From: Synechococcus sp. AG-670-A05
GTDB taxonomy: Bacteria; Cyanobacteriota; Cyanobacteriia; PCC-6307; Cyanobiaceae
Direction of reading: 5' to 3'
DNA length: 38,076 nucleotides
Assembly (NCBI GenBank): GCA_003211535.1
Contig: QCSJ01000006.1
Span: 17,501-55,576, forward strand
Each line of letters opens with the position of its first letter. Within the stretch, counting starts at the first letter, position 1. Positions 9,064 to 24,287 of this stretch are shown here, one piece after another. Under the pieces are notes generated by a model. The model did not search any database and had not been told where the DNA came from. It worked only from the letters and a program-made list of their open reading frames with translations. Made by a program: the position numbers and the translations under genes.

Positions 9064-10583
9064 TCTAGTCGCTCCTCCACCAGTGTTTGCAGCCGGCGGG
9101 CTTCCGTCAGATCCACCATTGCAAGCCGACAGCGCCGGGCCAGAACATCGCTGGCACTGCGGGCGTGCTCCTTTTGGATGGCGTGATCAATCTCTCCCTG
9201 GCACAGGGGGATAACGTTGCTTAGCGGTTCGCGCTGCCCCGGATCGATGCCAGAGATCAACGGCAGGGCCTGCAGGCCATGGTTGCTCTGCAGGTGGGCA
9301 ATCTGCTGATCCCTGAAGGCCCCTTCCGGCAGCAGATTCTGTAGCTGAATGGCCTGCTCCCTGAGCCGCTGACGCGTTTCCGTAGGGGTGTCCGCGCTCC
9401 CCAGCAGTGAGAGTGGTTGCGGCGCGCCAAGGGGATGACCCAGCTGGGTGGCAACCGCCTGGAGGGTGTCATCAGCCATGGGGCGGCAGGTGGTCCACTT
9501 GCCCCCCATCACACTCACCAGTCCACAGGGCAGCTTCTCCACCTCGTGCTCCCGCACCACACGGCTGCTGTCGAGGCTGTCCCCTGCCGGGCGGAGCAGC
9601 GGCCGACCTCCAGCCCAGCGGCTGGTCACCGTGGGATCGGATAAGCCTGGGAACCATTGGCGGACGTAACCCAGTAAGTAGCTCTCCTCCTCGTCGGTGG
9701 GGGTGGTGGCTGCATCGATGGCGCAGGGGGCGTCGGTGGTCCCCACCAGGGTGCGGCCGTGGAAGGGCAACATGAACAGCACGCGTCCATCCGCTGTTGA
9801 CGGCACCAGCAGCCCCAGACCTCCCGGACAGAGGTTCTGCTCCAGCACGAGATGGCAGCCACGGCTGGTGAGCATGCGCGGGGCTGCCTGTGGATCCGCA
9901 AGCTGGCGGATCGAATCCGCCTGGATTCCGGTGGCATTGACAATCACCCCAGCGGTCCAGCGCTCCTGTATCCCCGAGTCGGTTTCGCTGATGGCGGCGT
10001 TCAGACGCCCGTCCACCGATCGTTCCAATCCAACAACACGGCAACGGGTGCGCAGGGTGGCGCCCCCCTGTTCGGCGGTGCGTGCCAGCAGCAGATTCAA
10101 CCGTGCGTCATCGAACTGCCCATCGCTGTAGGCCACCCCGCCACGGCCCGGTTTCAGCATTGGCAGGGACTCCTGCAAGACCTCACGGCTGATGGCACGG
10201 CTGCGGCCGATGCGTTGCTGGCCGGCCAGAAGGTCGTAGAGGCCGAGTCCCGCCTTGTAGTACAGCTGGCCCCAAAGTGTGTCTGTCGGCAACACCAGCT
10301 CAAGCCGCTGGGCAAGAAACGGCGCCTGCTCCAGCCAGTGACCACGCTCCAGCAGGGCTTCCCTGACGAGTTGCAGCTGGGCCATGTCGAAGGTTTTGAA
10401 CGCCAGTTCCAGGTAGCGGACCCCGCCATGGAGGAGCTTGGTGCTGCGGCAGCTGGTGCCTCCACCTATGTCGCCAGCATCCAGCAACGCCACCGTCAGC
10501 CCCCGCCGCACGGCCTCCATCGCCACGGTTGCTCCGCTGGCTCCGGCTCCAATCACCAGGAGGTCAACGTTGTGATCAGCCAT
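9006..10583 (-). CDS. glpD: FAD-dependent glycerol-3-phosphate dehydrogenase (GlpD)
   Basis: The enzyme oxidises glycerol-3-phosphate to dihydroxyacetone phosphate and passes electrons to the quinone pool at the membrane. The dinucleotide-binding motif VIGAGASGATVAMEAV is at residues 10-25. It is followed by the family segment STKLLHGGVRYLE and, further on, GGKWTTCRPMAD, typical of GlpD/GlpA. At 525 residues it is full length. It overlaps the end of the upstream glpK by 8 bases on the same strand, so the two are translated from one message and act in sequence (kinase, then dehydrogenase). Its 3' end runs 58 bases into the opposed GH13 gene. Confidence 0.95.
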   Translation of the reverse strand: MADHNVDLLVIGAGASGATVAMEAVRRGLTVALLDAGDIGGGTSCRSTKLLHGGVRYLELAFKTFDMAQLQLVREALLERGHWLEQAPFLAQRLELVLPTDTLWGQLYYKAGLGLYDLLAGQQRIGRSRAISREVLQESLPMLKPGRGGVAYSDGQFDDARLNLLLARTAEQGGATLRTRCRVVGLERSVDGRLNAAISETDSGIQERWTAGVIVNATGIQADSIRQLADPQAAPRMLTSRGCHLVLEQNLCPGGLGLLVPSTADGRVLFMLPFHGRTLVGTTDAPCAIDAATTPTDEEESYLLGYVRQWFPGLSDPTVTSRWAGGRPLLRPAGDSLDSSRVVREHEVEKLPCGLVSVMGGKWTTCRPMADDTLQAVATQLGHPLGAPQPLSLLGSADTPTETRQRLREQAIQLQNLLPEGAFRDQQIAHLQSNHGLQALPLISGIDPGQREPLSNVIPLCQGEIDHAIQKEHARSASDVLARRCRLAMVDLTEARRLQTLVEERLDQLTGTAVSTSPINHQLMP

Positions 10584-12081
10584 GCCACCCCAGGCTGCGG
10601 TTCACGGCGTCATTCCAGCGATCACGCATGTGCCTGCTCCGCTCAGTGTTGATCTGCGGTTCGAACCGCTGCACATCGTCCTGCCGGTGGCCGGCGAAGT
10701 CGGACAGGTCGGGGATGAGGCCGCATTGCACACCCGCCAAAAGAGCGATACCGCGGGCTGTGCTCTCCAGGTTCCTGGGTCGACGCACCGTAAGGCCGGT
10801 GCTGTCCGCCTGAACCTGCAGCAGGGGATCGGAGGCTGCTGCTCCGCCATCTACCGCCAACTCCCCCAGGCCATGGCCGAGTGCCTCCTCCGCCAGCTCT
10901 ACCAGAGTGGCCACCGACAGAGCGATGCCATCCAGGGCCGCTCGGGCGATGTGGCCGCGGTTGCTGTCCCGGGTGAGCCCCACCAGCACCCCGCGGGCCT
11001 GGGGGTCCCAGTGGGGAGTCCCCCAACCGGTGAAGGCAGGCACCAGCATCACTCCGCCGCTGTCCGGCACCGACTGCGCTAGGGCATTCACTTCATCCGC
11101 CCGCTCTATGATTTGCAAACCGTCCCGCAGCCACTGCACAACTGTTCCTGCATTGAACAGGCTGCCCTCGAGGCAGTAGGTGGGCTTGCCGTCGGCATCA
11201 GTCCAGCCGAGGGTGCTGAGCAGTCCGGCGTTGGAGCGGCGGATGATATTGCCTGTGTTGATCACCAGAAAGGCCCCGGTGCCGTAGGTGCATTTGGCTT
11301 CGCCGGGCTCTAAGCAGAGCTGACCAAGGGTCGCGGCCTGCTGATCACCGAGAAGGGCCTGAATCGGCAATCCGCCGAAGGGGAGATCCGCTGCGATGCG
11401 TCCGAACTCTCCTCGGCAAGGCAGCAGCTCCGGTAAAGCACTGCCGGGGAGATCGGTCTGCTCCCGGAACTCATCCACCCAGCATCGCTGCTCAAGATCC
11501 ATCAGTAGCGTGCGGCTGGCATTGCTCATGTCGCTGCCGTGGCGTTGCCCTCCGGTGAGGTTCCAGAGCAGCCAGCACTCCACTGTGCCGAAGCACAGAT
11601 CGCCCTGGACCGCGGCGGCTTTGGCCTCGGGCTGATGCTCGAGCATCCATCGGATCTTGCTGGCGCTGAAATAGGGATCCAACAGCAAGCCGGTGCGCTG
11701 GCACCACGTAGCTTCGAGGCCGGCTGTTTTCCAACCGTGGCAGATGTCAGCGGTGCGGCCGTCCTGCCAGACCAGGGCCGGACCGCAGGGGCTGCCGCTG
11801 CTGCGACGCCAGAGCACGGTGGTTTCGCGTTGGTTGGTGATGCCGCAGCTCACCACGGACCGACGTTGCTCCTCATCGAGCTGCTGGTGCAGATCCTGCA
11901 GCGCTGTCTTCTGGCTGTTCCAGATGTCTCTGGGGTGTTGTTCCACCCAGCCATCGGCGGGGTACTGAATCGGCAGGGGGGTCGTCGTACTGGCCACGAG
12001 GTCACCCTTAACGTCAAACACTGCTGCGCGGGAGCTGCTGGTGCCTTGATCCAGCGCCAACAGGAGAGGCTGATGTGCCAT
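10576..12081 (-). CDS. glpK: Glycerol kinase (GlpK)
   Basis: This FGGY-family kinase phosphorylates glycerol to glycerol-3-phosphate. The N terminus LLALDQGTSSSRAAVFD is the phosphate-binding loop. GITNQRETTVLW and PALVWQDGRTAD carry conserved substrate residues, and FTGWGTPHWDPQARG is the typical second signature region. The length of 501 residues is normal. It is the first gene of a glpK-glpD unit, overlapping glpD by 8 bases, and diverges from the alpha-amylase gene with 51 bases between starts, so both promoters must sit close together. No glycerol facilitator is present, so intracellular glycerol, for example from glucosylglycerol breakdown, may be the source (inference). Confidence 0.96.
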   Translation of the reverse strand: MAHQPLLLALDQGTSSSRAAVFDVKGDLVASTTTPLPIQYPADGWVEQHPRDIWNSQKTALQDLHQQLDEEQRRSVVSCGITNQRETTVLWRRSSGSPCGPALVWQDGRTADICHGWKTAGLEATWCQRTGLLLDPYFSASKIRWMLEHQPEAKAAAVQGDLCFGTVECWLLWNLTGGQRHGSDMSNASRTLLMDLEQRCWVDEFREQTDLPGSALPELLPCRGEFGRIAADLPFGGLPIQALLGDQQAATLGQLCLEPGEAKCTYGTGAFLVINTGNIIRRSNAGLLSTLGWTDADGKPTYCLEGSLFNAGTVVQWLRDGLQIIERADEVNALAQSVPDSGGVMLVPAFTGWGTPHWDPQARGVLVGLTRDSNRGHIARAALDGIALSVATLVELAEEALGHGLGELAVDGGAAASDPLLQVQADSTGLTVRRPRNLESTARGIALLAGVQCGLIPDLSDFAGHRQDDVQRFEPQINTERSRHMRDRWNDAVNRSLGWHG

Positions 12082-12132
12082 GGCCGACTCGTTTCTTCCC
12101 TGCTAGCGAGGGGATTGCTGCCTGGAAAGGCC

Positions 12133-13563
12133 ATGGCGTCCTCCACGCCCTTCTGTGACCCTCCGGCCTGGGTGGCCGATGCCGTGATCTATCAGATCTT
12201 TCCGGATCGATTCCGCCGCAGCGGTCAGGTGAAGGCCCAGCGGCATCTGGAGCTGAAGCCCTGGGGCAGTGACCCCCGAGAGCAGGGCTTTCAAGGGGGA
12301 GACCTTTACGGGGTGATAGAGGCACTGGATCAGCTGCAGGCCATGGGGATTAGTTGCCTGTACCTGACTCCGATCTTCAGCTCTGCCGCCAATCACCGGT
12401 ATCATGCCTACGACTACTTCGAGGTGGATCCCCTGCTGGGGGGGGATGCTGCTTTGGATGCGTTGATCGTTGCCCTGCATCAGCGTGGCATGCGGCTAGT
12501 GCTGGATGGTGTGTTCAACCACTGCGGTCGTGGCTTCTGGGCCTTCCATCACCTCGTGGAAAACGGCCAGGACTCCCCATACCGCGATTGGTTTCATGTG
12601 CACCGCTGGCCGGTGCAGCCCTACCCGGCCGAGGGCCAGGACTGCGGCTACGACTGCTGGTGGGCCGTGCCTGATCTTCCCAAGTTCAACCATGCCAATC
12701 CCGCGGTGAGGGAGCACCTGCTTGAAGTGGGGCGCTTCTGGCTGGAACGGGGCATCGATGGTTGGCGTCTAGATGTGCCTGCTGAAGTGCCCGCTGCGTT
12801 CTGGGTGGATTTCCGTCGCGTGGTCCGGGAGGTCAACCCTGACGCCTGGATTGTTGGTGAGATCTGGGGTGATGCCAGGTCCTGGCTTCAGGGCGAGCAC
12901 TTTGATGGGGTAATGAATTACCGCCTCGGCTGGAGCAGCCTTGGCTGGGTGGCAGGAGATCGGTTGCGGCAGGGCTACCGCAATAAGGAATATCCGCTCA
13001 ATCCTCTAAGCAGCGAGGCGTTGCTCGATATATGGAGCACCACGACCGGGTGGTACAGGCCAGCCGTGAACCGAGCTCAAATGAACTTGTTGGACAGCCA
13101 CGATGTCCCGCGTGCATTGCACAGCCTCAACGGGGATGTGGAGGCCCTGGAGCTTGCCCTGCTACTGCTTTTTCTTCAGCCAGGGGCCCCTTGCGTGTAC
13201 TACGGCACAGAAGCGGCACTGTCCGGAGGTCCTGATGCTGAACTTTCCGGAGGCCCGGAACCCGCTTGCCGTGAAGCCTTTCCTTGGGATCAACCCTGGG
13301 CTGCGGATCTAAGACCCACCATTGCTGGTCTGGCTGGCCTGCGGCGAAACCACCCGGAGCTCACCCGTGGCTATCTGCTCTGGGAACCGATCGGACGCGA
13401 CGGGTTGTTTGGAACGATCTCAGGCGGCTACAGCGTCTGGGTCAACCGCAGCATTACGACCTCCATGGAAATTCAACCGGGAGGTTCCACGATCTGGAGT
13501 TGTGGTGTCTGTGACGGGCAATCCCTGAAGCCGCAATCTGCAGTGGTGCGTCTGCAGGGATGA
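12133..13563 (+). CDS. GH13 alpha-amylase family enzyme, neopullulanase/cyclomaltodextrinase-like
   Basis: This cytoplasmic enzyme of about 476 residues acts on alpha-glucans or maltodextrins. The opening VADAVIYQIFPDRFRRSG and the ANHRYHAYDYFEVDP segment are typical of neopullulanase, maltogenic amylase and cyclomaltodextrinase. Catalytic residues are D214 (GWRLDVP), E243 (IVGEIWGD) and D324 (LLDSHD). It lacks the N-terminal starch-binding domain of many GH13_20 enzymes, so it is a short form. The ATG at 12133 follows a GGAAAGG with very short spacing. The frame is open upstream across glpK, but that part is antisense to glpK and is not protein-like. The gene ends 1 base before the 3' end of the opposed tRNA-Thr gene. 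Confidence 0.88.
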   Translation: MASSTPFCDPPAWVADAVIYQIFPDRFRRSGQVKAQRHLELKPWGSDPREQGFQGGDLYGVIEALDQLQAMGISCLYLTPIFSSAANHRYHAYDYFEVDPLLGGDAALDALIVALHQRGMRLVLDGVFNHCGRGFWAFHHLVENGQDSPYRDWFHVHRWPVQPYPAEGQDCGYDCWWAVPDLPKFNHANPAVREHLLEVGRFWLERGIDGWRLDVPAEVPAAFWVDFRRVVREVNPDAWIVGEIWGDARSWLQGEHFDGVMNYRLGWSSLGWVAGDRLRQGYRNKEYPLNPLSSEALLDIWSTTTGWYRPAVNRAQMNLLDSHDVPRALHSLNGDVEALELALLLLFLQPGAPCVYYGTEAALSGGPDAELSGGPEPACREAFPWDQPWAADLRPTIAGLAGLRRNHPELTRGYLLWEPIGRDGLFGTISGGYSVWVNRSITTSMEIQPGGSTIWSCGVCDGQSLKPQSAVVRLQG

Positions 13564-13564
13564 A

Positions 13565-13636
<72 letters not shown>

Positions 13637-13646
13637 ATGTGGAAGA

Positions 13647-13728
13647 TGGGCCGGGTTGGATTTGAACCAACGTAGGCAGAGCCAGCGGATTTACAGTCCG
13701 CCCCCATTAACCACTCGGGCACCGACCC
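13647..13728 (-). tRNA. tRNA-Tyr (anticodon GUA)
   Basis: This is an 82-base class II tRNA on the minus strand with a long variable arm. The acceptor GGGTCGG pairs with CCGGCCC, allowing one G-U pair. The anticodon stem-loop is GCGGA-CTGTAAA-TCCGC, giving anticodon GTA, and the T loop is TTCAAAT. No CCA is encoded. It lies 10 bases upstream of tRNA-Thr and the two are probably co-transcribed. Confidence 0.97.
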
Positions 13729-13813
13729 GAACCACACTTGAAGAACTTACCAGCCGGTGTGACGCCCACGACCGAATCGATACGATCTCCACAGCTGAAA
13801 CCCGCCTGCGGCC

Positions 13814-14251
13814 ATGCACCTGCTGCTGCTGAACGGACCCAACCTCAATTTGCTGGGCCAGCGGGAGCCAGGGATTTACGGAAGGGGAACGCTGGCATCG
13901 ATCGAAGACCTACTTGGACAGGAGGCCACCGCTGAGGGGGCTCAACTGGATTGTTTTCAGAGCAACTTCGAAGGGGCTCTTGTGGAACGTATCCATCAGG
14001 CCATGGGGTTGAGCCAGGGGATCCTGATCAATGCCGGCGCGTACACGCATACCTCCGTTGCACTCAGGGATGCACTGCTGGGGGTGGCGATTCCCTTCGT
14101 GGAGTTGCATCTCACCAACACCCATGCTCGCGAAAATTTTCGTCATCGCTCTCTCTTGGCAGATCGGGCTGTCGGGGTGGTGTCTGGTTTTGGGCCTATG
14201 AGCTATTCCCTTGCTCTGCAGGGTCTACTTCACCATTTACGCCAATCCTGA
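13814..14251 (+). CDS. aroQ: Type II 3-dehydroquinate dehydratase (AroQ)
   Basis: The enzyme catalyses the third step of the shikimate pathway. The N terminus [20 protein letters not shown] is the classic signature. The active-site Tyr is in the GIYG segment, [19 protein letters not shown] carries the conserved Asn and His-Thr-Ser, and [16 protein letters not shown] carries the second active-site His. At 145 residues it is full length and forms the usual dodecamer in this family. Its stop codon overlaps the start of miaE by one base (TGATG), indicating translational coupling. Confidence 0.96.
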
Positions 14252-14892
14252 TGAAGCTTGGCAGTCCCCCAAAAAGCGTCTCGTCGATCCTCTGGTTAAA
14301 GGCTCCTACCAGTTGGAGTTGGGTCGAACAGGCGAATTCCTGCCCGATGGAGGTTCTGATCGACCATGCGAATTGCGAGCGCAAAGCAGCTGGATTTGCA
14401 GTTCAGATGATGTTTAGGTACCTCTGCGAGCCGGGTCTTGGTGAAGTCCTGAGTCCCTTGGCAAGAGAGGAGTTGGAGCATTTCGAACAGGTTCTATCGG
14501 TTATCAAGGCCCGAGGTCGCTACTTGGAGCCGCTTCCCTCCCCCGGCTATGGCGCCGATTTATCTAGACATATTCGCAAAGTAGAACCTCACCGAATGTT
14601 GGATTCTTTTCTAGTGGCTGGATTGATCGAAGCTCGCTCACACGAGCGAATGGCTCTTCTTGCAGAGCACAGCCCTGATGCAGAGCTCAGAAGGTTATAT
14701 GGAGGCTTGTTGGCGAGCGAAGCACGTCACTTTGGACTGTACTGGGGGTTGGCTGAATCTCGCTGGAAAAGGGAATTGATCTGTCAAAGACTGGATGAGC
14801 TCTCTGAGGTCGAAGCAACTGTGTTAGAGGGCTCTTTAAGTCAACAAAATGACGTAAGGATGCATTCTGTTGGAGTTATCCGAGGCTATTAA
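14251..14892 (+). CDS. miaE: tRNA-(ms2io6A37) hydroxylase-like protein (MiaE)
   Basis: MiaE is a ferritin-like di-iron monooxygenase that hydroxylates the isopentenyl group of ms2i6A37 in tRNA. The 213-residue protein shows IDHANCERKAA, the iron ligand motif EELEHFEQV (E-x-x-H), an arginine-rich middle and a second ligand motif SEARHFGLYW, in the order expected for this family. The ATG at 14251 is embedded in the aroQ stop codon, so translation is coupled. Longer in-frame readings across aroQ are not protein-like. The N terminus is poorly conserved, and the gene sits where base composition begins to fall toward the AT-rich segment on its right. Confidence 0.88.
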   Translation: MKLGSPPKSVSSILWLKAPTSWSWVEQANSCPMEVLIDHANCERKAAGFAVQMMFRYLCEPGLGEVLSPLAREELEHFEQVLSVIKARGRYLEPLPSPGYGADLSRHIRKVEPHRMLDSFLVAGLIEARSHERMALLAEHSPDAELRRLYGGLLASEARHFGLYWGLAESRWKRELICQRLDELSEVEATVLEGSLSQQNDVRMHSVGVIRGY

Positions 14893-14940
14893 CTATTCCA
14901 GTTCTCATGCAATTTGAATTCGCACATGTAGTTGGCCCTT

Positions 14941-14968
14941 GAAAAGCGGGCAAGTGAATGACTTGCCC
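14941..14968 (-). terminator. Intrinsic terminator for the DJ-1/PfpI gene
   Basis: GGGCAAGT (14948-14955) and ACTTGCCC (14961-14968) form a perfect 8-base-pair stem with a 5-base loop. Read on the minus strand it is followed by GCTTTTC, a short T run. It lies about 50 bases after the stop codon at 15017, so it fits as the end of that transcript. On the plus strand no T run follows, so its use after miaE is doubtful. Confidence 0.65.
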
Positions 14969-15016
14969 ACTTGATTGCCGGATGATTAACTCGCCACAAC
15001 TTATGCAGTTGGCCTC

Positions 15017-15631
15017 TTAAGCTTCCTCGATGCCTTTGATAAATAGATCAATTAATTCATCGGTAAATGCAGGATGCTTGGCTGTAATGAGATCACCATC
15101 GACAACACTTCCCACGGTTCCATCGTCACCGTATTGCACATCAGCACCTGCATTCTCAACGTCACAAATAATATTGTGAGCACATGTTACTTTGCGACCT
15201 TCGAGTAGTGTTTTGTCAGCGCAAAGAAGCCAAAGAGAGTGGCAGATAGTACCAATTTTTACGCCAGGCGTTGCATTGATTTTGCGTAGCAGTTCGACTG
15301 CAGGAGCATCATTGGGTTTTCCTTTTGCGGGTTGAACTGTATAACGCAAGCGATCTGTTGCATAGGCTCCAATCAGGAGGAAACCCTTGTAATCAATAGG
15401 GTTGACATCCTTGACATCCTTGGAAACAGTAATATGTTCTTCAACCCAGCCATTGTCTGGATTAGAGCCAAACTGAAGGGTGGGATTTCCCCAAAGGTTC
15501 GTTACGTATTCCAGATCAAAACCAGCGGCGGGAAATCGCTTGTTAAAAAGGCGATATTCGGTCATGTCGAAGTGATCTTCGATGAATACACCGATTTTCC
15601 CTTTGGACTCACCGTGGGCAGGGAGAAGCAT
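15017..15631 (-). CDS. DJ-1/PfpI-family protein
   Basis: The 204-residue protein has the DJ-1/PfpI glutamine-amidotransferase-like fold. The start GKIGVFIEDHFDMTEY carries the conserved acidic residue. The nucleophile elbow is GTICHSLWLL with Cys followed by His, as in PfpI-type proteins. An AHNIICDVENAGADV segment and a C-terminal FTDELIDLF helix follow. Members act as glyoxalases, deglycase-like proteins, chaperones or hydratases, and the sequence does not choose between these. It is the first gene in the AT-rich segment, faces miaE and diverges from a small NTF2-like gene. Its own terminator lies at 14941-14968, so it is probably monocistronic. Confidence 0.82.
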   Translation of the reverse strand: MLLPAHGESKGKIGVFIEDHFDMTEYRLFNKRFPAAGFDLEYVTNLWGNPTLQFGSNPDNGWVEEHITVSKDVKDVNPIDYKGFLLIGAYATDRLRYTVQPAKGKPNDAPAVELLRKINATPGVKIGTICHSLWLLCADKTLLEGRKVTCAHNIICDVENAGADVQYGDDGTVGSVVDGDLITAKHPAFTDELIDLFIKGIEEA

Positions 15632-15914: not shown

Positions 15915-16478
15915 ATGGCGCGTACCAACTATTACGAGGGTCTTGCGGCAGATTATTCCCGCCCTGGTCTTGTCAGTGAAGAGTTAAAGGCCAAGTTGAT
16001 TCAGCGTTCAGCTGAAATTGGCGTCCTCCAGGAGTCAACGCTCCCATCAATCGGTCCTGATTACACCCATGAGCAGATCGAAGCTGAAAATCGTGAATTT
16101 TGGCCAACGCACTGCGAGGCACTCCGCCAAGGTCGTGGTGATCTTTTGACCAAGGAGTATCGTCCTGATCTTGTATATCACTGCCAAGACGGTCCTTATA
16201 ATGGGATTACTGAACAGCAGAAGCGCGAAAAGCACTGGTGGGCTATTATTGCTCAACCAAATGTAACGATGGTATGGCCGATTGTTCAGTTTTGGGGTGA
16301 ATTCACCCACTTTGAGTGGATATGTCTTGATGACAATACTCATGAGCAGATTGCCAAAGGAAGTGTCTGTTGGGTACGCCGTGGCCATCGCGGAGGTTGC
16401 TACTACAAGAGTGAGCAGCTGACATTTGTTCGTGATGTATTCGCCTCTGAAGATCTTCTTAAACTGATCAGCGTTTAA
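15915..16478 (+). CDS. Small NTF2/SnoaL-like protein of unknown function
   Basis: The 187-residue protein starts at the ATG of MARTNYYEGLAADYSRPG; an upstream reading from 15852 exists but adds unlikely residues. The part from about residue 60 (NREFWPTHCEALRQGRGD and on, then YNGITEQQKREKHWWAIIA, and aromatic beta strands ending YYKSEQLTFVRDVF) has the pattern of an NTF2/SnoaL-like alpha+beta barrel. Such folds often bind small hydrophobic ligands or serve as enzymes, but I cannot assign an activity. It is divergent from the PfpI-family gene and convergent with the TPR/oxygenase gene, ending in a shared hairpin terminator. Confidence 0.68.
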   Translation: MARTNYYEGLAADYSRPGLVSEELKAKLIQRSAEIGVLQESTLPSIGPDYTHEQIEAENREFWPTHCEALRQGRGDLLTKEYRPDLVYHCQDGPYNGITEQQKREKHWWAIIAQPNVTMVWPIVQFWGEFTHFEWICLDDNTHEQIAKGSVCWVRRGHRGGCYYKSEQLTFVRDVFASEDLLKLISV

Positions 16479-16482
16479 TTGT

Positions 16483-16544
16483 CTTCCAATGAATGGATAT
16501 CACTCTCGAAATTTTTTTGAGGGTGATTTCCTTTGGAAGTTTTT
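16483..16544. terminator. Hairpin terminator between convergent genes
   Basis: An outer arm CTTCCAA (16483-16489) pairs with TTGGAAG (16533-16539), and an inner arm ATCACTCTC (16499-16507) pairs with GAGGGTGAT (16519-16527) with one G-T pair. TTTTT follows on the plus strand at 16540-16544. The opposite strand reads into A/T-rich sequence, so it may work both ways. It ends the NTF2-like gene. Confidence 0.7.
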
Positions 16545-17928
16545 ATTGAACATTAAAGGCGACACATACTCTTTCTTCAGTACTGCTCAGAGGAATTGTG
16601 CTATGTGGAAAGTAGCTCGGAAACATAACGGCTAAACCAGGTTCCGGCTCGATCTGAAGTTGAGACTCGTTTTCTGCTTTAGAGAAGCATAAATTTCCTT
16701 TACCACTTGCCAGAGTTGTACCTTGACCGCTAGGTACTCTCAAATATAAAACCCCGCTGTATTTAGCTTCGGGATGAATATGTCTCTTCTGAAATCCCTC
16801 CTCTTTAAGTATAACTCCCCATCCACTGAGCTTAATGGGTGTTGACCACTTACCTGTTAGTCCTTCCTGCTCTTTTCTTGGCATCTCGAGTAATATGTTT
16901 GTTAGTTTGTTCATGAGTTGACTGATTGCATTCGAGTTGTGTCTGCTTTTAAAGAGTTCGTGAGTTTGAAAACCTGAACGAGTTGGTTTACCTGCCCGAT
17001 TCCAAACAAGACTTTGATCATTTTTAATTTCATTTACTATTTCCTCAAGTATTGGATCATTATTCTTGAATATATGTTTGCGTTTAACTTGGATGTCAGG
17101 ATCGTATAATTTGCTCATGCTGATTTTATCTTGTTGGTCTTCAGGCAGTTCTAATACTGCAGCATGCCATCGAATAGCATCGAACGATTGCTTATTGTGC
17201 AACAGTTTGCTGACAGCTCTGTCCCAGTTTTTCTCTTCGATTGCCAAGTATACTTCTCGTATATTTGTATTGTTGAATCCTTCACGCTTACTACTTTCTC
17301 GTGAGCTTTGCGTTTGAGCAAGGCTGCTCAATCTTCTTAAGGCTTCTGGTGCATCTGGAACTATATTTAGGCATTCCTTGTATTCTTTAACGGCTTCATC
17401 AGTTCTGCCAAGGGTCTCCAGGAATCCTGCTAAATTGTAGTGCCCAAGAAACTCATTAGGTCTTATATTAACTACTTGCCTGTATACTTTTTCTGCAAAA
17501 TCATATTTTCCCGTTTCGGATAATACGATAGCGTAGTTTGTCAGTAAGCTTGGATCAGGTTTGAATTGCCCATGAATGGCTTCTTCAAGTATATTCTTGG
17601 CCTCACTCAATCGACCAGATTTGATTAAGGCTTCGCTTAATGCGCCAATAAGAGGCGGTGAAAATCTATCTTTTTTTTGTAAAATACTGAAGAGGTCGCT
17701 TGCTAGATTCCAGTATTGACTTTGTAGTGCAGTTTGTCCAATACTAAAAATAATCTGCGGTGGCAGTTGAGAGCTCTCGTTTTGGCCATAGATTTGTTGA
17801 AACAAGTCAAGAAACTTTTCAGATTTATTTGTTCCAATGAAATACCTTGCAGTTTCAATAAGAAGCTGAATATTATTCGGATCTTGCTTTAAATCCGCAC
17901 TGAGTTTTTGAGGATTGGTCTTCATCAT
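16543..17928 (-). CDS. TPR protein with C-terminal 2-oxoglutarate/Fe(II) oxygenase-like domain
   Basis: The 461-residue protein has about five tetratricopeptide-like helical pairs in its first 210 residues (for example KYDFAEKVYRQVVNIRPNEF and EAVKEYKECLNIVPDAPEAL). The C-terminal 150 residues match the putative 2OG-Fe(II) oxygenase family PF13759. KRHIHPEAKYSGVLYLRVP carries one histidine motif, and PGLAVMFPSYFPHSTIPL plus ERVCVAFNV carry the distal His and the Arg expected to bind 2-oxoglutarate. This architecture recalls hydroxylases that work on proteins or cell-surface sugars; the substrate is unknown. The gene is strongly AT-rich. It starts 33 bases beyond the terminator of the epimerase gene, so it is a separate transcript. 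Confidence 0.8.
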   Translation of the reverse strand: MMKTNPQKLSADLKQDPNNIQLLIETARYFIGTNKSEKFLDLFQQIYGQNESSQLPPQIIFSIGQTALQSQYWNLASDLFSILQKKDRFSPPLIGALSEALIKSGRLSEAKNILEEAIHGQFKPDPSLLTNYAIVLSETGKYDFAEKVYRQVVNIRPNEFLGHYNLAGFLETLGRTDEAVKEYKECLNIVPDAPEALRRLSSLAQTQSSRESSKREGFNNTNIREVYLAIEEKNWDRAVSKLLHNKQSFDAIRWHAAVLELPEDQQDKISMSKLYDPDIQVKRKHIFKNNDPILEEIVNEIKNDQSLVWNRAGKPTRSGFQTHELFKSRHNSNAISQLMNKLTNILLEMPRKEQEGLTGKWSTPIKLSGWGVILKEEGFQKRHIHPEAKYSGVLYLRVPSGQGTTLASGKGNLCFSKAENESQLQIEPEPGLAVMFPSYFPHSTIPLSSTEERVCVAFNVQ

Positions 17929-17961: not shown

Positions 17962-17993
17962 AAAAAAAGAGACGCCTTGCGGAAGGCGTCTCT
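17962..17993 (-). terminator. Strong intrinsic terminator after the epimerase-STAS gene
   Basis: AGAGACGCCTT (17968-17978) and AAGGCGTCTCT (17983-17993) form an 11-base-pair perfect stem with a 4-base loop. On the minus strand the stem is followed by an uninterrupted run of T (complement of 17962-17967). It lies 46 bases after the stop at 18039 and defines the end of the glgX/epimerase transcript. Confidence 0.93.
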
Positions 17994-18038
17994 CGATTCT
18001 ACAGAAATCAGTAGATCTGGGTTATTTAGATGTGATTA

Positions 18039-20201
18039 TTAGCCGATGATCTCAAACTCTTCGCCAAGCTCGGCATCTTTCAGTCCTTCAGAGATTTCAG
18101 GATTTAAACCTTTCAATTTGACAGAGAATGAGGCTCCACGCTGCTGTGCTGTGAACAGTAGATAGTTCCAGCCAGTGTCGTCGACAGACTTCAGATTAGT
18201 CATATCAAGTACAATTCCCTGAACACCGCTGAGTTTTTCCAACTCTTTTTTGAAGAGAGGTAGATTTTGCTTGGAGAGGTCTCCATCAAGTGCGAACTGA
18301 GCAATTCCACTATCGAAATTTATCAGATCCGTACTAAAGCCAAGTCCTGTCGGTTCGATGCGGACTCGAACCCGTAGAGACTTATCAGATTCAGGGAGGT
18401 TGACGATCATGTTCTCCTTGTCAAAATCAGTGTAATTCTTATCATCAATCCATACCTCTGAAAGCTCTACGCTACCTTTTGGAAGAAGATCAGGAGCAAC
18501 ATAGAGTTTATTATCAGGCCAACCCTGAGGATTAGGCTTGAAGTAAAAGTCCATCGGTTGCTTGTTTACCAACAGATTCGAATAGATTGCAGCGAGGAAG
18601 CAAAGTTCGAAAGAGTGATAGCCAGCCATCGAGTGACTGCCCTTGCCACGTTCTGAGCCGAGGGCATAAGGTTGGCCGTTGGCTAGCACATTGAAATAGA
18701 TACCACCAGACTCGTAGTCGAGGAACCAGCCGTTGTAGAAGGCCGTTCCTTCACGAGCAAAATTCAGGTATTCAGGTTTGTCGTCATAGACGCCAGCCAT
18801 GATGTAGTAAGCGAGGATTCCTTGCTCCTGCTGCCACCATGCTTTGCGATCGTGCCAGACACGGCGATAATTTTCTTCGCCCTCCTTAAGAGTTCTTTCC
18901 ATCATGTCGTACCAGCCACCCCGCTGGGTATCACAACCTGAACCTGGAATGGCATCTGCAATTTGGTGAGCAAATGTCTTGTAGCTCTCCTTGGGCATCA
19001 AGCTGTGCATTCTTGTCAGGTTCCAGGCAACCTTGAGGTTGTGGCCAACAACACAGCGGGCTTGGTGAATTCCCCATTTCAGATCATGCGTCCAGTCATC
19101 GTAGAACTTTTCGTTCATGAAGGGGCTGTAGCCATAATCAGGGAAATGTTCGCAGATAGTATCGAACGTATCTTCGAGAAACTTTGCGTAACTTTCTTCG
19201 CCGGTTGCGAGATAGAGATTGATCAGATATGCCGGAGCATGATCACCAACAGAGTTCCAGTTCTTCTTCGCCTTATTAACTCCGAGTGAATCTGCTTTCG
19301 CGTCAAAAGTTACTGGGTCAACATGCGAATAATATCCTCCGTATGGACCATGATCTTTGTAGTAACGGTTGAGGAAAGCGATTGTGTGATCGATGTCATT
19401 CCGAATGCCATCGCCACCTGTGAGTCGCCAAGTTTGGGTGGGGCCTGCCAGTGCATAAATTTGCTCGTAGCAAGGAATAGCATTCCCGCCTTCATCTCCA
19501 CCAGCGGTTGATCCCATATATTTGCGAACACTGCCGTTATCTTGAATGTCAATTTGACTATACCAATAGCAAATCCCTTCGCTCTTATTTTGGTGCCTGA
19601 AATGCCTTTGCATGTATTCTGTACCGTTGACTGCTGCTTCAAGGGCTCGTTCGTCCCCAGTCATCATGTAAGCAGTCGCGAATCCATAAATCAATCTTGA
19701 AATGGTATCAAGATTTTGGATACCATCCTGTTTTTTCCCTTCTGCACTGAGATCAGTTCTGAACTTCTTGAAGTCGATTGGTTCGCCTTCAACAACTTGG
19801 AATTGAGCTTCAAGGTAGAAATTCAGTAGTTGTTGGATTTGATGGATCCACCAGTTCTGTTCTTCAAAGCGCAGATCACCTTTGTCGCGTCCAAAAAGCA
19901 GGAGATGTTTGGCTTCGAATTTTAGTCGATCGTTTTCTGGATAGAACAGGCCATAAACGTGGATAAAACGATCTACTACAAGAATGTGATTGAGATCTGG
20001 AGCCATTTGGAATGGCTCTCCTAGGTTTCTTACTAGTTCTGCATAAGCGGCATCTGTAATTTTTACGGTGAACATCCGCCCATCAGATGTTTCCAGCTCG
20101 ATTTCACCTTGGCAATCAAAAGTTTCTGGGTAAGAAACGCTTCTGATGTAGCCAGCAATTAGGTCTGAGAAGGGAAAATCTAGTTGATTCTTGGAAGCCA
20201 T
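18039..20201 (-). CDS. N-acylglucosamine-2-epimerase-like protein fused to a C-terminal STAS domain
   Basis: This is a 720-residue multidomain protein. Residues 1-130 form a beta-rich domain I do not recognise. Residues about 160-545 form an (alpha/alpha)6 barrel like that of N-acylglucosamine 2-epimerase / cellobiose epimerase, with VVGHNLKVAWNL (H387), AWWQQEQGIL (455-463) and GYHSFELC (H529) at the places where the family carries its catalytic His and acidic residues. Several family-typical positions differ, for example Lys after GHNL, so the reaction may differ. Residues 560-625 form a beta linker. Residues 631-718 match a STAS (anti-sigma antagonist) domain: FALDGDLSKQNLPLFKKEL, IVLDMTNLKSVDDTGWNY. 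The usual phosphorylatable D-S-[ST]-G is D-D-T-G here. It follows glgX by 59 bases on the same strand, and a strong terminator comes after it. Confidence 0.85.
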   Translation of the reverse strand: MASKNQLDFPFSDLIAGYIRSVSYPETFDCQGEIELETSDGRMFTVKITDAAYAELVRNLGEPFQMAPDLNHILVVDRFIHVYGLFYPENDRLKFEAKHLLLFGRDKGDLRFEEQNWWIHQIQQLLNFYLEAQFQVVEGEPIDFKKFRTDLSAEGKKQDGIQNLDTISRLIYGFATAYMMTGDERALEAAVNGTEYMQRHFRHQNKSEGICYWYSQIDIQDNGSVRKYMGSTAGGDEGGNAIPCYEQIYALAGPTQTWRLTGGDGIRNDIDHTIAFLNRYYKDHGPYGGYYSHVDPVTFDAKADSLGVNKAKKNWNSVGDHAPAYLINLYLATGEESYAKFLEDTFDTICEHFPDYGYSPFMNEKFYDDWTHDLKWGIHQARCVVGHNLKVAWNLTRMHSLMPKESYKTFAHQIADAIPGSGCDTQRGGWYDMMERTLKEGEENYRRVWHDRKAWWQQEQGILAYYIMAGVYDDKPEYLNFAREGTAFYNGWFLDYESGGIYFNVLANGQPYALGSERGKGSHSMAGYHSFELCFLAAIYSNLLVNKQPMDFYFKPNPQGWPDNKLYVAPDLLPKGSVELSEVWIDDKNYTDFDKENMIVNLPESDKSLRVRVRIEPTGLGFSTDLINFDSGIAQFALDGDLSKQNLPLFKKELEKLSGVQGIVLDMTNLKSVDDTGWNYLLFTAQQRGASFSVKLKGLNPEISEGLKDAELGEEFEIIG

Positions 20202-20260: not shown

Positions 20261-22426
20261 CTAGCTGGATGCTCGGGAGGCGAGAACCACAATGCTTCGG
20301 CCTGTCACAACATAACTGCTGTCGTGAACAGCAATCTGTTGTTCAGGTGGGCTGATGTCGTTGGGAGAGGGCAGCGAGGTATCGATAGCTCGATACCATT
20401 GAAGCCCGTCAACTTTTGGAATGTCAAATTCAATTCCATCCCAATACATATTAAACATAACGTGAATATTGTTTGTATGATTCGTGTCTTCAGCGGTATC
20501 TCCTAGCGTCATAGCTAGGCATCGGGAATTCGAATCGTCCCAGCCAGGGTTATTGAGTTTTGTGCCATGCCATGATATATCGTACAGGCCATACTTGTTG
20601 CAGTCACCCGTGAAATAGCGCCCTTTAAAGTGATCTATATATCTCCTTCTCTTCTCCATTAGGCAAGACCAGAACCGTATCATTTCTTGGCTTTGTTTGT
20701 TTTCAATCTGCTCCCAGTTGAACCAGTTTATTTCGTTGTCGTGGCAATAAGTGTTATTGTTGCCTCCCTGACTTCTCATGAATTCATCGCCGGCAACTAT
20801 CATTGGAACTCCCATCGAGAGCATGTGAATAGTCGCAAAATTCTTGACTTGTCTTTTCCTTAGGTCATTGATCCATTGGTCTTGCGTTTCTCCTTCTGCT
20901 CCACAGTTCCAGCTGACATTGTCGTCGATCCCGTCATTGTTTCCTTCGCCATTAGCCCAGTTATGTTTTTCATTGTATGCGGTTAAATCATAAAGCGTAA
21001 ATCCGTCGTGAGCTGTGACGAAGTTGACGCTATTTGTGGGCTCATGATGACGACCTTCGTAGAGGTCCGCACTTCCTGTAATGCGCCCAGCTACCTCGCC
21101 AATGATGCCAGGCTCGCCCTTGATGAAGTTACGAATGCAATCGCGATATTTACCATTCCATTCTGCCCACCGTGCGCCAGGAAAAGAGCCAATCTGGTAA
21201 AGTCCTGCCGCGTCCCAGGCTTCTGCAATCACTTTGGATTGTCCAAGTAAATCATCCAATTCAATTGACCAGACAACAGGAGGATGCTCAAGCGGTTCGC
21301 CATCTTCGCCTCGACTCAGGACAGAACCTTCATCAAAGCGAAAACCGTCCACATGCATTTCTTTCACCCAGAAGCGCAGTGAATCAATAATGAGCTTTTC
21401 GCCGACTGGATGATTGCAATTAAAGGTATTACCACAGCCCGTATAGTCGTAATAAAATTCCTTGCTATTATCAGGGCCGGTCAGGTAATAGTATGAACTA
21501 TTGTCAATTCCTTTGAAGCTAAACGTTGGCCCTTGGTGATTGCCTTCATCAGTATGATTATAGACAACATCCAAGATAACTTCTAGTCCAGCCTTGTGAA
21601 GAGCTTTGACCATATCTCTGAATTCATCAATGTGTTTGCTTGTGTCTTCGTTGACGCAGTACCCTTGATGAGGTGCAAAGTACCCCATGGTGCTATACCC
21701 CCAGTAATTAACTAATTTGCGCCCTTCGTGTTCCTTGGTTACGTCTGTGTGGTCAAAGCTGCAGACTGGCAGCAGCTCTACTGCTGTGATGCCAAGTGAC
21801 TTGAGGTAAGGGATTTTCTCAATCAGTCCCAAGTAAGTTCCAGGATTGGCAACCCCACTTGTTGGGCTTTTTGTGAAGCCGCCTACGTGCATTTCGTAGA
21901 CGATCGTTTCGGACATGGCTCGTTTAAGAGGTTGATCGCCCTCCCAGTCGTAGTTGTCGGTGTCGATGACAACACTTCTCATACTCTTATAGAGATTGTC
22001 GCCTGGCATGCAGGCTGGTCCCCTCTCCCAGAGATTTAAACAGTTGCCCTTTGAATAAGGATCAACCAGTACCTTTTCGAAGTCAAAGCGATGTCCGTTC
22101 CAGGTTTCATCCGGCCCATCTACCCTGTAGGCATAGCCCATGCCTGGCAAGACTCCTTCTACAAATGTGTGCCAGATATTGAAGCTGCGATTGTCCTCGC
22201 TGCTCAGTTCAATGACTTTGACTGGTTCTAGGTCGTCAGGTTTTGTGAAGATGAGAAGCTGAACTCTATTGGCGCTTGAGCTGTATAAAGAAAAATTTGT
22301 TCCCCCTGATTCCGGTGTGCTCCCGAATGGATGTGGCGAGCCTTTGTAGCGACGAAATGAAGTGCCCTCTGGTTCAAGCGGATTTCGCTTAAGGCTTTCT
22401 TCGTGCATGGGTGTGCTCGTTGTCAT
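20261..22426 (-). CDS. glgX: Isoamylase-type glycogen debranching enzyme (GlgX)
   Basis: The 721-residue GH13_11 enzyme hydrolyses alpha-1,6 branches of glycogen. A CBM48-like domain (SPHPFGSTPESGGTNFSLYS) is followed by the barrel: YEMHVGGFTKSPTSG, LLPVCSFD, ILDVVYNHT (region I) and VDGFRFDEGSVLSRG with nucleophile D365. VIAEAWDAAGLYQIG has acid/base E402, and FVTAHDGFTLYDL has D474. The usual Leu-Ala after the nucleophile is replaced by Glu-Gly. It is upstream of the epimerase-STAS gene and probably co-transcribed with it. Its base composition is AT-richer than the GH13 genes at 7.4 and 12.1 kb, pointing to a different history. Confidence 0.93.
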   Translation of the reverse strand: MTTSTPMHEESLKRNPLEPEGTSFRRYKGSPHPFGSTPESGGTNFSLYSSSANRVQLLIFTKPDDLEPVKVIELSSEDNRSFNIWHTFVEGVLPGMGYAYRVDGPDETWNGHRFDFEKVLVDPYSKGNCLNLWERGPACMPGDNLYKSMRSVVIDTDNYDWEGDQPLKRAMSETIVYEMHVGGFTKSPTSGVANPGTYLGLIEKIPYLKSLGITAVELLPVCSFDHTDVTKEHEGRKLVNYWGYSTMGYFAPHQGYCVNEDTSKHIDEFRDMVKALHKAGLEVILDVVYNHTDEGNHQGPTFSFKGIDNSSYYYLTGPDNSKEFYYDYTGCGNTFNCNHPVGEKLIIDSLRFWVKEMHVDGFRFDEGSVLSRGEDGEPLEHPPVVWSIELDDLLGQSKVIAEAWDAAGLYQIGSFPGARWAEWNGKYRDCIRNFIKGEPGIIGEVAGRITGSADLYEGRHHEPTNSVNFVTAHDGFTLYDLTAYNEKHNWANGEGNNDGIDDNVSWNCGAEGETQDQWINDLRKRQVKNFATIHMLSMGVPMIVAGDEFMRSQGGNNNTYCHDNEINWFNWEQIENKQSQEMIRFWSCLMEKRRRYIDHFKGRYFTGDCNKYGLYDISWHGTKLNNPGWDDSNSRCLAMTLGDTAEDTNHTNNIHVMFNMYWDGIEFDIPKVDGLQWYRAIDTSLPSPNDISPPEQQIAVHDSSYVVTGRSIVVLASRASS

Positions 22427-22443: not shown

Positions 22444-22611
22444 ATGGCGTCGTGGGATTTTTTCTGGATCCCTTCGATGCTATTGACTGCTGTGCAGGCG
22501 AACCCGCACACGCTCCTCTTGAATAGCAGTGATCTCTGCCAGTGGACCTTGAAAAAGGAACTTTGTCTTGATTTGGCGAAGTACCTTGACAATGGCTTGT
22601 GCACTGACTAA
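22444..22611 (+). CDS. Possible small secreted cysteine-containing protein
   Basis: A 55-residue frame from ATG at 22444 starts MASWDFFWIPSMLLTAVQA, which could be a signal peptide. It continues with a short mature part holding three cysteines (SSDLCQWTLKKELC and NGLC). AGGGAC lies about 11 bases upstream. It fills the 181-base spacer between glgX and the bicA-like gene and is divergent from glgX. It ends by overlapping the last bases of the opposed transporter gene (4 bases). The evidence is composition and placement only, so it may be chance. Confidence 0.35.
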   Translation: MASWDFFWIPSMLLTAVQANPHTLLLNSSDLCQWTLKKELCLDLAKYLDNGLCTD

Positions 22612-24287
22612 CCGAGTATTTTTGTGTGCGCCTGTTGAAGGGCTTCTAGCCGCGTGTCTGTTGTCACGTCGACGCCGAAGCGTTTCAGTCGCTCTTTCGG
22701 TTTTTGATTTGCTCCGGCAACGATTGCGAGTCGACCAAGGGATTCAGCTTCCTGCACCATGCGCTCGATAGCCAATGATGCGGTGACCCCAATTCTTGGG
22801 ACATCAGAGATGTCAAGAATCAGAACTTTATAGTTGCTAATTAATCCAATACGAGCACTGATCCCTTTGGCTGCTCCAAAACTCAGTGGACCTCGTAATC
22901 GAAAGAGCATCAGTTTGTTTCCACAGGCTTCCATAAGTATTTGCTCCTCTTGGCTTAGGTCCCCGATCTGGTGGTTCCCACCCATTTGAGGGTTGTCGTG
23001 ATCCATGCTCTGAAGTTGGGTCTGCGTGATGGCATCCACTGTCAGCATGTTGGCGACGAACATCCCCACCAGCACCCCCCAGATCAGGTCCCAGAAGACA
23101 GTCATCAGCATCACGGCGTACATCAGTGCTGCGGTTTTGACCGAAAGCCGGTGAGCCCTGAGCAGAAAGCCCCAGTCGATGATGTCGAGCCCAACCTTGA
23201 TCAGTATCCCCGCAAGCAAGGCTGTAGGGATCTCTGCCGCTAGCGGACCCGCACCAAGAAGCACAAGCAGCAGCACCAAGGAGTGGGTCATGCCTGAGAT
23301 CGGCGTCGCACCCCCCGATTTGATATTTATGACTGTGCGCATCGTGGCTCCAGCACCGGGAAGGCCTGAAAGCAGTCCTGATGCAGTGTTCGCGATTCCC
23401 TGTCCAATCAGCTCTCGGTTGGAGTCATGGTTCGTCTGGGTGATGTTGTCTGCCACCAGCGACGTCAATAATGAGTCGATTGCTCCAAGTAGGGCCAGCA
23501 CTACGCCCGCCTTCAGCAGTTCCGGCAGATGCTGACCGAAATTCGGCATTGCAAACCGGAGCCCTCCGTCCGGAATGGCTCCGATGCGGTTCAGGGGTTC
23601 CAGTCCCAACGACTGCAATCGGTCGTCGTTGAACATCAACATCGACAAAGGCGTCACGATCAGCAGGGCCAAAAGCGGTGATGGCACCCACTGGCGAATC
23701 CGGATCGGCGTAAGGAACACCACCGCAAGGGTCATCACGCCAATGCTGACCGCTGCAGGATTCGGCAACGGCTGTTCGGCCAGTGTCGTCAGGCATCCGA
23801 CGACTCCTCCTGTTGTGGTCACTCCCAAGAAGGGGCCGATTTGAAGGATCAGGATGATGAACCCGATTCCGGACATGAATCCCGAGACCACCGAATAGGG
23901 CACCAGGGTGATGAAACGTCCAAGGCGAAGCACTCCGAGCAGTGCTTCGAAGACGCCACCGATCGCCACAGCAGCCATGACCAACGGCAACATCTCACCG
24001 GCCGACAGGCCTGTTGTTACTCCAATGGCGGCCAGGCTGGAGACCACGCCTGCCACCGTGACGCTCATGGGCCCAGTCGGCCCGCTCACCTGGGACGGGG
24101 TCCCCCCGAACAGAGCTGCGACGAACCCTGTGACGATGGCGCCGTAGAGGCCGTAAATCGCTCCTCCTGGACCCAGGGCTGCATTTCCGAAGGCCAGAGC
24201 AAGAGGCAAAGCCACTACGGCTGCGGTCAGCCCCCCCAGAAGGTCTCCCCGCAGATTGCGCGTGTGCAAGCCGTGAATCAAAGCCAT
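22608..24287 (-). CDS. bicA: SulP-family anion permease, BicA-like bicarbonate transporter
   Basis: The 559-residue inner-membrane protein has ten or more hydrophobic segments and a C-terminal STAS domain (about residues 430-550). The N-terminal part (NLRGDLLGGLTAAVVALPLALAFGNAAL) and FGGTPSQVSGPTGPMSV are typical of SulP transporters and closely match the BicA sodium-dependent bicarbonate transporters of cyanobacteria as I remember them. In those, this family supplies HCO3- to the CO2-concentrating mechanism. Sulfate or another anion remains possible. The gene starts 3 bases after a thioredoxin-like gene ends on the same strand, so the two form an operon. The STAS domain has no canonical D-S-[ST]-G motif. 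Confidence 0.82.
   Translation of the reverse strand: MALIHGLHTRNLRGDLLGGLTAAVVALPLALAFGNAALGPGGAIYGLYGAIVTGFVAALFGGTPSQVSGPTGPMSVTVAGVVSSLAAIGVTTGLSAGEMLPLVMAAVAIGGVFEALLGVLRLGRFITLVPYSVVSGFMSGIGFIILILQIGPFLGVTTTGGVVGCLTTLAEQPLPNPAAVSIGVMTLAVVFLTPIRIRQWVPSPLLALLIVTPLSMLMFNDDRLQSLGLEPLNRIGAIPDGGLRFAMPNFGQHLPELLKAGVVLALLGAIDSLLTSLVADNITQTNHDSNRELIGQGIANTASGLLSGLPGAGATMRTVINIKSGGATPISGMTHSLVLLLVLLGAGPLAAEIPTALLAGILIKVGLDIIDWGFLLRAHRLSVKTAALMYAVMLMTVFWDLIWGVLVGMFVANMLTVDAITQTQLQSMDHDNPQMGGNHQIGDLSQEEQILMEACGNKLMLFRLRGPLSFGAAKGISARIGLISNYKVLILDISDVPRIGVTASLAIERMVQEAESLGRLAIVAGANQKPKERLKRFGVDVTTDTRLEALQQAHTKILG

Follow-up and report, generated by a model that had tools for sequence, protein, structure and literature searches.

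The window, i.e., the whole stretch of 38,076 nucleotides that was analysed, comes from Synechococcus sp. AG-670-A05, whose genome of about 2.0 Mb is 83% complete. Its minus strand carries a gene for a glycogen-debranching enzyme (GlgX) and, just downstream, a gene whose product joins an epimerase-type barrel to a C-terminal STAS domain (Table 1). The closest named relatives, Synechococcus sp. AG-673-B04 and AG-679-B05, are presumably marine and encode fusion proteins that are 95% identical. In the AF2 model of the whole protein (pLDDT 85.5, pTM 0.83), a β-rich N-terminal domain is followed by the α-helical barrel, a β segment (residues 550-617) and, from about residue 620, the STAS domain. 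A terminator-like hairpin lies just behind the gene; across the region, such sites are in no excess (10 found vs 9.4 expected from shuffles). Elsewhere in the window, a block of sugar and glycerol genes (7402-13563) encodes a TreS-like amylase-family protein, glycerol-3-phosphate dehydrogenase, glycerol kinase, and a maltodextrin-glucosidase-like protein.

Table 1 Features of the GlgX-fusion gene pair and its surroundings, numbered from the first nucleotide of the window
Feature	Position	Strand	Remarks
Fused AGE-like barrel and STAS gene	18039..20201	minus	720 aa, stop included
N-terminal β-rich domain, residues 11-110	19872..20171	minus	AF2 strands 14-102; conserved in alignment; without listed Pfam match
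(α/α)6 epimerase-type barrel, residues about 111-545	18567..19871	minus	Foldseek best match 8h1l, E 1.8e-18; profile match 8bry, E 9.9e-8
STAS domain, residues 618-720, STAS-b type	18042..18350	minus	PF01740, model, STAS tree
Asp675 codon, phospho-Ser position	18177..18179	minus	alignment to stand-alone STAS partners
His387 codon (GHNLK), first catalytic His position	19041..19043	minus	aligned with GHGIE of canonical AGE; 44/44
Lys390 codon, Glu in AGE	19032..19034	minus	44/44 Lys
Gln460 codon (WWQQEQ), Glu in AGE	18822..18824	minus	44/44 Gln
His529 codon, second catalytic His position	18615..18617	minus	44/44 His
GlgX glycogen-debranching enzyme, fused-locus subtype	20261..22426	minus	TIGR02100 over cut-off; 59 bases upstream of fusion gene
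Intrinsic-terminator-like hairpin and T-run just after fusion gene	17967..17994	minus	12 pairs
TPR and 2OG-Fe(II) oxygenase gene (PF13759)	16543..17928	minus	follows fusion in picocyanobacteria; present at 22/33 fused loci
SulP transporter with STAS tail	22608-24287	minus	closest NCBIfam family BicA at 548 bits (cut-off 880); upstream neighbour of GlgX-fusion pair

The AF2 model displays the (α/α)6 barrel fold of the AGE/cellobiose 2-epimerase superfamily, and the top Foldseek ranks are occupied by structures of glucose 2-epimerase, mannose isomerase, cellobiose 2-epimerase, YihS, and AGE/GlcNAc 2-epimerase (best E-value 1.8e-18). The AGE profile PF07221, proposed in the earlier note as a check, gives a divided result: hmmscan returns no match to the fusion protein up to an E-value of 0.1, whereas a genome search gives 29.3 bits summed over the frame (cut-off 23.4), with 20.5 bits for the best single stretch. 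Matches to GH127 (15.9 bits by hmmscan, cut-off 24.9) and to the NCBIfam cellobiose 2-epimerase EpiA (17.9 bits, cut-off 800) are below threshold.

The glutamates of the GHxxE and WWxxxE motifs matter for AGE activity. When the fusion protein is aligned by profile with three cyanobacterial AGEs of the canonical type (about 20% identity, 360 columns), R169 coincides with the conserved Arg, and H387 and H529 with the pair of catalytic His; the Glu of GHGIE corresponds to K390 and that of WWVHLE to Q460. Both glutamates are likewise absent from all 44 rows of an alignment of fused and unfused proteins (a chosen subset of loci), in which R169, H293, H387, K390, E459, Q460, H523, and H529 are each found in 44/44. 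The sequences GHNLK and WWQQEQ do differ from canonical AGE, as had been noticed before; however, they are invariant family-wide with both catalytic His kept. Since Lys390 and Gln460 are common to fused and unfused proteins, the changed motifs mark the family, not damage in this protein. The two histidines serve as acid/base catalysts in AGE-type enzymes (PMC5726027). Judged from the alignment, the Glu to Lys and Glu to Gln replacements may mean that catalysis is lost or changed.

The PF01740 match at residues 630-718 (E-value 2.2e-4) scores 21.4 bits by hmmscan, just under the cut-off of 22.6, and 26.1 bits in the genome search, over the cut-off. Modelled alone, the STAS part reaches a pLDDT of 94, and SpoIIAA (in complex with SpoIIAB) and RsbV are among its best Foldseek matches (best E-value 3.2e-6), i.e., it has the fold of RsbV/SpoIIAA-type antagonists. 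The open reading frame, the PF01740 match, and the AF2/Foldseek results, together with the recurrence of the architecture in 14/388 genomes, bear out the earlier claim of an epimerase-type barrel and a STAS domain in one 720-residue frame. In RsbV and SpoIIAA, the Ser of the D-S-[ST]-G motif is phosphorylated. Residues 674-677 of the fusion protein read D-D-T-G, and in the alignment D675 takes the place of the Ser found in stand-alone STAS partners; the claimed Asp at the phosphorylation position is confirmed, and the protein lacks a phosphorylatable Ser or Thr at this site.

Relatives of the protein were matched in 48 of the 388 genomes of a class survey, one of them weakly (G234), and as one continuous fused frame in 14, the source genome included (as read from the matches). 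A contig scan gave 61 loci, where some proteins stop near residue 617 and others extend to the full end. In a barrel-only tree, 43 fused proteins form one side of a branch with SH-aLRT 99 (the trees are of the quick type, without bootstrap). As the fused barrels make up one clade, a single fusion event is the simplest reading. The occurrence of a single frame in 14/388 genomes and in one clade means that the barrel-STAS architecture is not due to chance. Some copies stand apart by their origin: the fused copy of L023 (66% identical, Asp at the site) lies on a contig binned as Cytophagales, and the bin that contains L005, L008, L012, and L045 bears the title uncultured proteobacterium, which in either case points to lateral transfer or mis-binning. 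Barrel relatives in G138, G212, and G337 (40-41% identical over residues 64-610) are neither fused nor placed in the icfG group.

Most relatives with an unfused barrel belong to icfG-type operons that comprise the barrel, STAS-a, GlgX, STAS-b, an RsbW-type kinase, and a PP2C phosphatase. The icfG cluster of Synechocystis contains the epimerase-like Slr1855, the STAS proteins Slr1856 and Slr1859, an isoamylase/GlgX, the IcfG phosphatase, and the kinase Slr1861 (PMC8670252 and PMC12329169). In genomes G009 and G039, whose unfused barrels are 52% and 57% identical to the barrel protein of the fusion, the short-form barrel lies (among the matches listed) in one cluster with two STAS genes, GlgX, a kinase of the RsbW type, and a PP2C of the SpoIIE type; matched by gene content, this set corresponds to the Synechocystis cluster. 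In a STAS tree of 111 columns and 81 rows, whose inner forks are weak, the fused STAS domains cluster with STAS-b and not STAS-a (SH-aLRT 99). Fusion of the barrel to the adjacent STAS-a (Slr1856-like) is ruled out by this grouping.

The two kinds of loci differ sharply in gene content (fragments L054, L057, L059, and L061 are left out of the locus counts). Among 25 unfused loci, several of them on short contigs, STAS-a is present at 24, STAS-b at 20, the kinase at 18, and PP2C at 17; the locus with none of the four is L060, a 34% identical outlier. As separate genes, STAS-a, STAS-b, kinase, and PP2C were found at 0/33 fused loci, 22 of which extend at least 7 kb on both sides. Profiles of the icfG kinases and PP2C had no match (E-value 0.01) in the open reading frames of 56 fused loci (38 span 12 kb or more and 17 less than 6 kb; copies included and some genomes represented twice). 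The icfG-STAS profile detected the fused protein itself at 54/56 of these loci and no other; L004 and L065, which contain unread residues, fell below the threshold, and transporter STAS domains form a different group and were not counted. The full icfG set is thus not together at fused loci, which retain of it GlgX and the fused protein. The earlier note had suggested an enzyme with its own partner-switch module and a survey for a cognate kinase or phosphatase conserved nearby; with none found by profile at 56 fused loci, this part needs correction to an enzyme whose switch has lost its known local inputs and is not a working module.

Pfam analysis of 146 neighbouring open reading frames at ten deep fused loci (25 commonest families listed) includes five matches to HATPase_c, and a cNMP-binding domain accompanies it in one or more of the five; a list of this length leaves room for a rare HATPase_c_2 or SpoIIE gene. 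The deep fused locus L029 continues (12454-15554) with two proteins, one response-regulator/thioredoxin-reductase-like, which L131 also has, and the other a cNMP-binding protein with HATPase_c. The Gastranaerophilales copy at L060 is unfused, and with no icfG-type STAS, kinase, or PP2C found there and a GlgX nearest the subtype of the window, it is possibly an old two-gene GlgX-barrel pair.

Stand-alone STAS partners carry the phosphorylatable Ser by pattern in 28/28 STAS-a and 23/24 STAS-b proteins; the one missed must be the Treponema STAS-b, which reads SSAGIR. Residues at the same position in 43 fused proteins are D (28), E (1), S (7), T (4), N (1), G (1), and I (1), i.e., 29/43 are acidic. 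These rows exclude the near-copies L063, L064, L065, L068, L070, L072, and L073 and the second copies L127, L128, L130, and L135; the 34% identical L060 is outside that tree, and L012 is a fused copy cut at its 5' end. The deepest 11 fused rows have Ser or Thr in 10 cases and Asp in the eleventh (G072). The other 32 form a long-branched clade of Acaryochloris/Leptolyngbya-like and picocyanobacterial copies with 28 acidic residues, 1 Thr, and 3 N/G/I. At least five switches between acidic and non-acidic residues are required on the 43-row tree, while a 23-row Synechococcus/Prochlorococcus-type clade is acidic throughout. The Asp noticed in this protein is therefore shared by most fused proteins, but it is no rule of the whole fusion. 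Loss of a phosphorylatable residue across the 32-row clade as a whole is a firm conclusion; a selected phosphomimic is likely for the 23-row clade alone.

Along the same series, the icfG-STAS profile scores 75 bits against the deepest fused copies and about 18-20 bits against the nearest kin of the window's protein, and the STAS domain evolves faster than the barrel (median dN 0.196 vs 0.045). Its dN/dS is nevertheless about 0.03-0.08 in four close pairs (dN/dS of 0.044/0.749 for L001-L002, 0.039/0.932 for L001-L003, 0.054/0.661 for L069-L071, and 0.041/1.387 for L005-L066), which are relied on here as dS has reached saturation in most of the 66 pairs (47-54, according to domain). For the pair L066-L067, the STAS dN is 0.165 and dS is not computable. 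In 21 Synechococcus/Prochlorococcus-type proteins checked, some of them near-copies, 30 STAS positions including D675 are invariant. The substitution pattern indicates that the STAS domain is under purifying selection, i.e., maintained but diverged. A degenerate, decaying protein is ruled out by the STAS dN/dS and the invariant positions.

The GlgX gene upstream of the fusion gene largely co-occurs with it. It is present at 29/33 fused loci, and by best score it is of the window's type at 50/50 fused loci with a strong match (copies included), whereas GlgX at 25/25 icfG-type loci scores best against that of G009 or G039; the window's GlgX is 41-44% identical to these two. Loci L059, L079, and L088 are cut or short loci of the fused type, of which L059 and L088 are inside and L079 outside the GlgX tree. 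Among the matches listed for 34 same-genus genomes (the source genome included), GlgX of the fused type (at least 70% identity) occurs in 17/17 with the fusion and 1/17 without it; several of these genomes are incomplete. The match to the fusion in G018 covers part of the protein (residues 1-209), and in G002, the one exception, GlgX lies at the edge of a contig. The GlgX genes of G007 and G027 are split. In G007 (C1:1734893-1737057), the fused-type GlgX lies in two frames and is possibly a broken gene, whereas the gene for the fusion is intact. At the Prochloron-type loci L030 and L031, no GlgX was found in about 22 kb.

It is very probable that a single fusion took place, that the STAS part is of STAS-b origin, that no kinase or phosphatase neighbours the gene, and that the Ser was lost. 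The data support the joining of an icfG-type AGE-like barrel, in the simplest case a single time, to a STAS-b domain (Slr1859-like) and the later loss of the phospho-Ser, with an acidic residue throughout the 23-row Synechococcus/Prochlorococcus-type clade. GlgX cuts branches from glycogen. The barrel superfamily works on free sugars and reducing ends, and these would arise from debranching and subsequent breakdown. When GlgX, encoded in the same operon, sets free a sugar or malto-oligosaccharide, the barrel would bind its reducing end and, with two His retained, probably epimerise or isomerise it. The STAS domain would no longer be toggled by phosphorylation at the D675 site; held in a phosphorylated-like state, it might serve the barrel permanently for docking or allosteric control. 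In the preferred reading, an icfG-type partner-switch operon has thus been reduced to a single protein that is independent of the kinase, coupled to GlgX, and equipped with a STAS domain locked in a phosphorylated-like state. Taken as a whole, this reading has about an even chance of being right, its functional part being an inference. The extension in which an antagonist domain is genetically locked in a phosphorylated-like form, and sugar occupancy of the barrel rather than phosphorylation signals to glycogen debranching (or a sigma regulator), is conceivable but rather doubtful.

Several observations count against the preferred reading. The N, G, T, or I at the phosphosite of some fused proteins argues against strict selection for a phosphomimic, and the fading of the STAS score to about 18-20 bits might equally reflect drift. 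With Lys and Gln in place of two active-site Glu of canonical AGE, catalysis by the barrel may be lost or changed. The link to GlgX has exceptions, given its absence from L030 and L031 and the window-like GlgX at L060, where the barrel is unfused. Finally, a kinase encoded elsewhere in the genome, such as the product of the strong HATPase_c_2 gene, could still bind the STAS domain.

The last point leads to an alternative that we consider unlikely, in which partner switching continues, with the Asp-STAS domain as a constitutive, sugar-gated ligand or decoy for a remaining RsbW/PmgA-like kinase, and the sugar state of the barrel tunes a sigma factor. In the source genome, a single strong HATPase_c_2 gene and a single gene of the SpoIIE type are present; among the matches listed, one strong HATPase_c_2 and one SpoIIE-type phosphatase are kept by each of the complete same-genus fusion carriers (G003, G007, G020, G023, G029, and G032). 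Purifying selection on the STAS domain is also consistent with this alternative, as is the two-hybrid interaction of Synechocystis PmgA with Slr1856 and Slr1859 (PMC12329169). However, complete same-genus genomes without the fusion likewise have one of each among the matches listed, with a weaker HATPase match in G033, and the kinase is therefore not dedicated to the fusion; G009, with its icfG-like cluster, has two HATPase_c_2 and two SpoIIE-type matches among those listed. No kinase travels with the fusion, but one exists that could bind it. Moreover, a phosphomimic Asp would be expected, from SpoIIAA/RsbV biochemistry, to weaken kinase binding, and the HATPase_c_2 gene as a PmgA homologue is a guess. 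The idea that the fusion's STAS is the sole non-transporter STAS of the genome was dropped, as complete relatives carry a further Ssr1600-like STAS; its absence from the 83% complete source genome is probably a gap.

Equally improbable seems a barrel that acts as a non-catalytic sugar sensor and relays ligand binding to the STAS domain, which in turn regulates GlgX or another enzyme directly. The invariant Lys390 and Gln460 in place of two active-site Glu and the linkage to GlgX speak for such a sensor, whereas the retention of both catalytic His, Arg169, and the further invariant His293 in all 44 rows goes beyond what a sensor would need. That the STAS domain is a structural leftover without a regulatory role, drifting since the loss of the kinase, fits its faster evolution and the variable phosphosite outside the Synechococcus/Prochlorococcus-type clade and is very unlikely given a dN/dS far below 1 and the 30 invariant positions.

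With regard to the preferred reading, the loci form an ordered series (unfused with Ser, fused with Ser or Thr, and fused with Asp) that shows a partner-switch module losing its kinase and yet being kept. The poorly understood epimerase-like protein of the icfG cluster is tied physically to a STAS partner, and to GlgX by neighbourhood and co-inheritance, and a single protein now allows the role of this carbon-control cluster to be tested. Much primary production is due to marine Synechococcus and Prochlorococcus. As few partner-switch genes were found in the relatives searched (among the matches listed), it would matter in these organisms if glycogen use included a link without a kinase. AGE-type barrels, STAS domains, and the icfG cluster are already known; no description of the fusion with its locked site and GlgX-linked locus was found in the literature searched, which comprised few subscription papers. 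The new regulatory layout proposed in the earlier note derives from the known icfG cluster and is less isolated than had been supposed.

The protein resembles several known systems in part. RsbV/SpoIIAA anti-sigma factor antagonists share its STAS fold and provide the best Foldseek matches; here, an Asp replaces the phospho-Ser, an enzyme-type barrel is attached, and no cognate kinase or phosphatase was found nearby. Members of the AGE/cellobiose 2-epimerase superfamily (PF07221; e.g., 2gz6, 5zig, and 8h1l) have the same (α/α)6 barrel, two catalytic His, and Arg, whereas the fusion protein has Lys390 and Gln460 for two Glu and additionally contains the N-terminal β domain, the C-terminal β segment, and the STAS domain. 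STAS-tailed SulP/BicA transporters, one of which is encoded in the window, also bear a C-terminal STAS on a larger metabolic protein; they are, however, membrane transporters, and the STAS of the window's transporter is placed outside the icfG STAS groups (weakly supported, on a long branch). The icfG cluster of Synechocystis PCC 6803 (slr1852-slr1862; PMC8670252 and PMC12329169) has the same kind of barrel beside STAS and GlgX genes, where Slr1855 is likened by description and not by sequence. The window differs from it by the fusion of the STAS-b-type domain to the barrel, by another GlgX subtype, and by the lack of any detected STAS-a, kinase, or PP2C. Near the fusion gene lie a DJ-1/PfpI gene (15017-15631, minus strand) and a gene for a 186-residue protein (15918-16478, plus strand), homologues of which are inside or beside icfG-type operons at 16/25 and 9/25 unfused loci, respectively. 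The 186-residue protein has no NCBIfam match (an NTF2-like fold is a guess) and is 85% identical to one in the icfG-like cluster of G009. Both genes look as if they were remnants of the old cluster.
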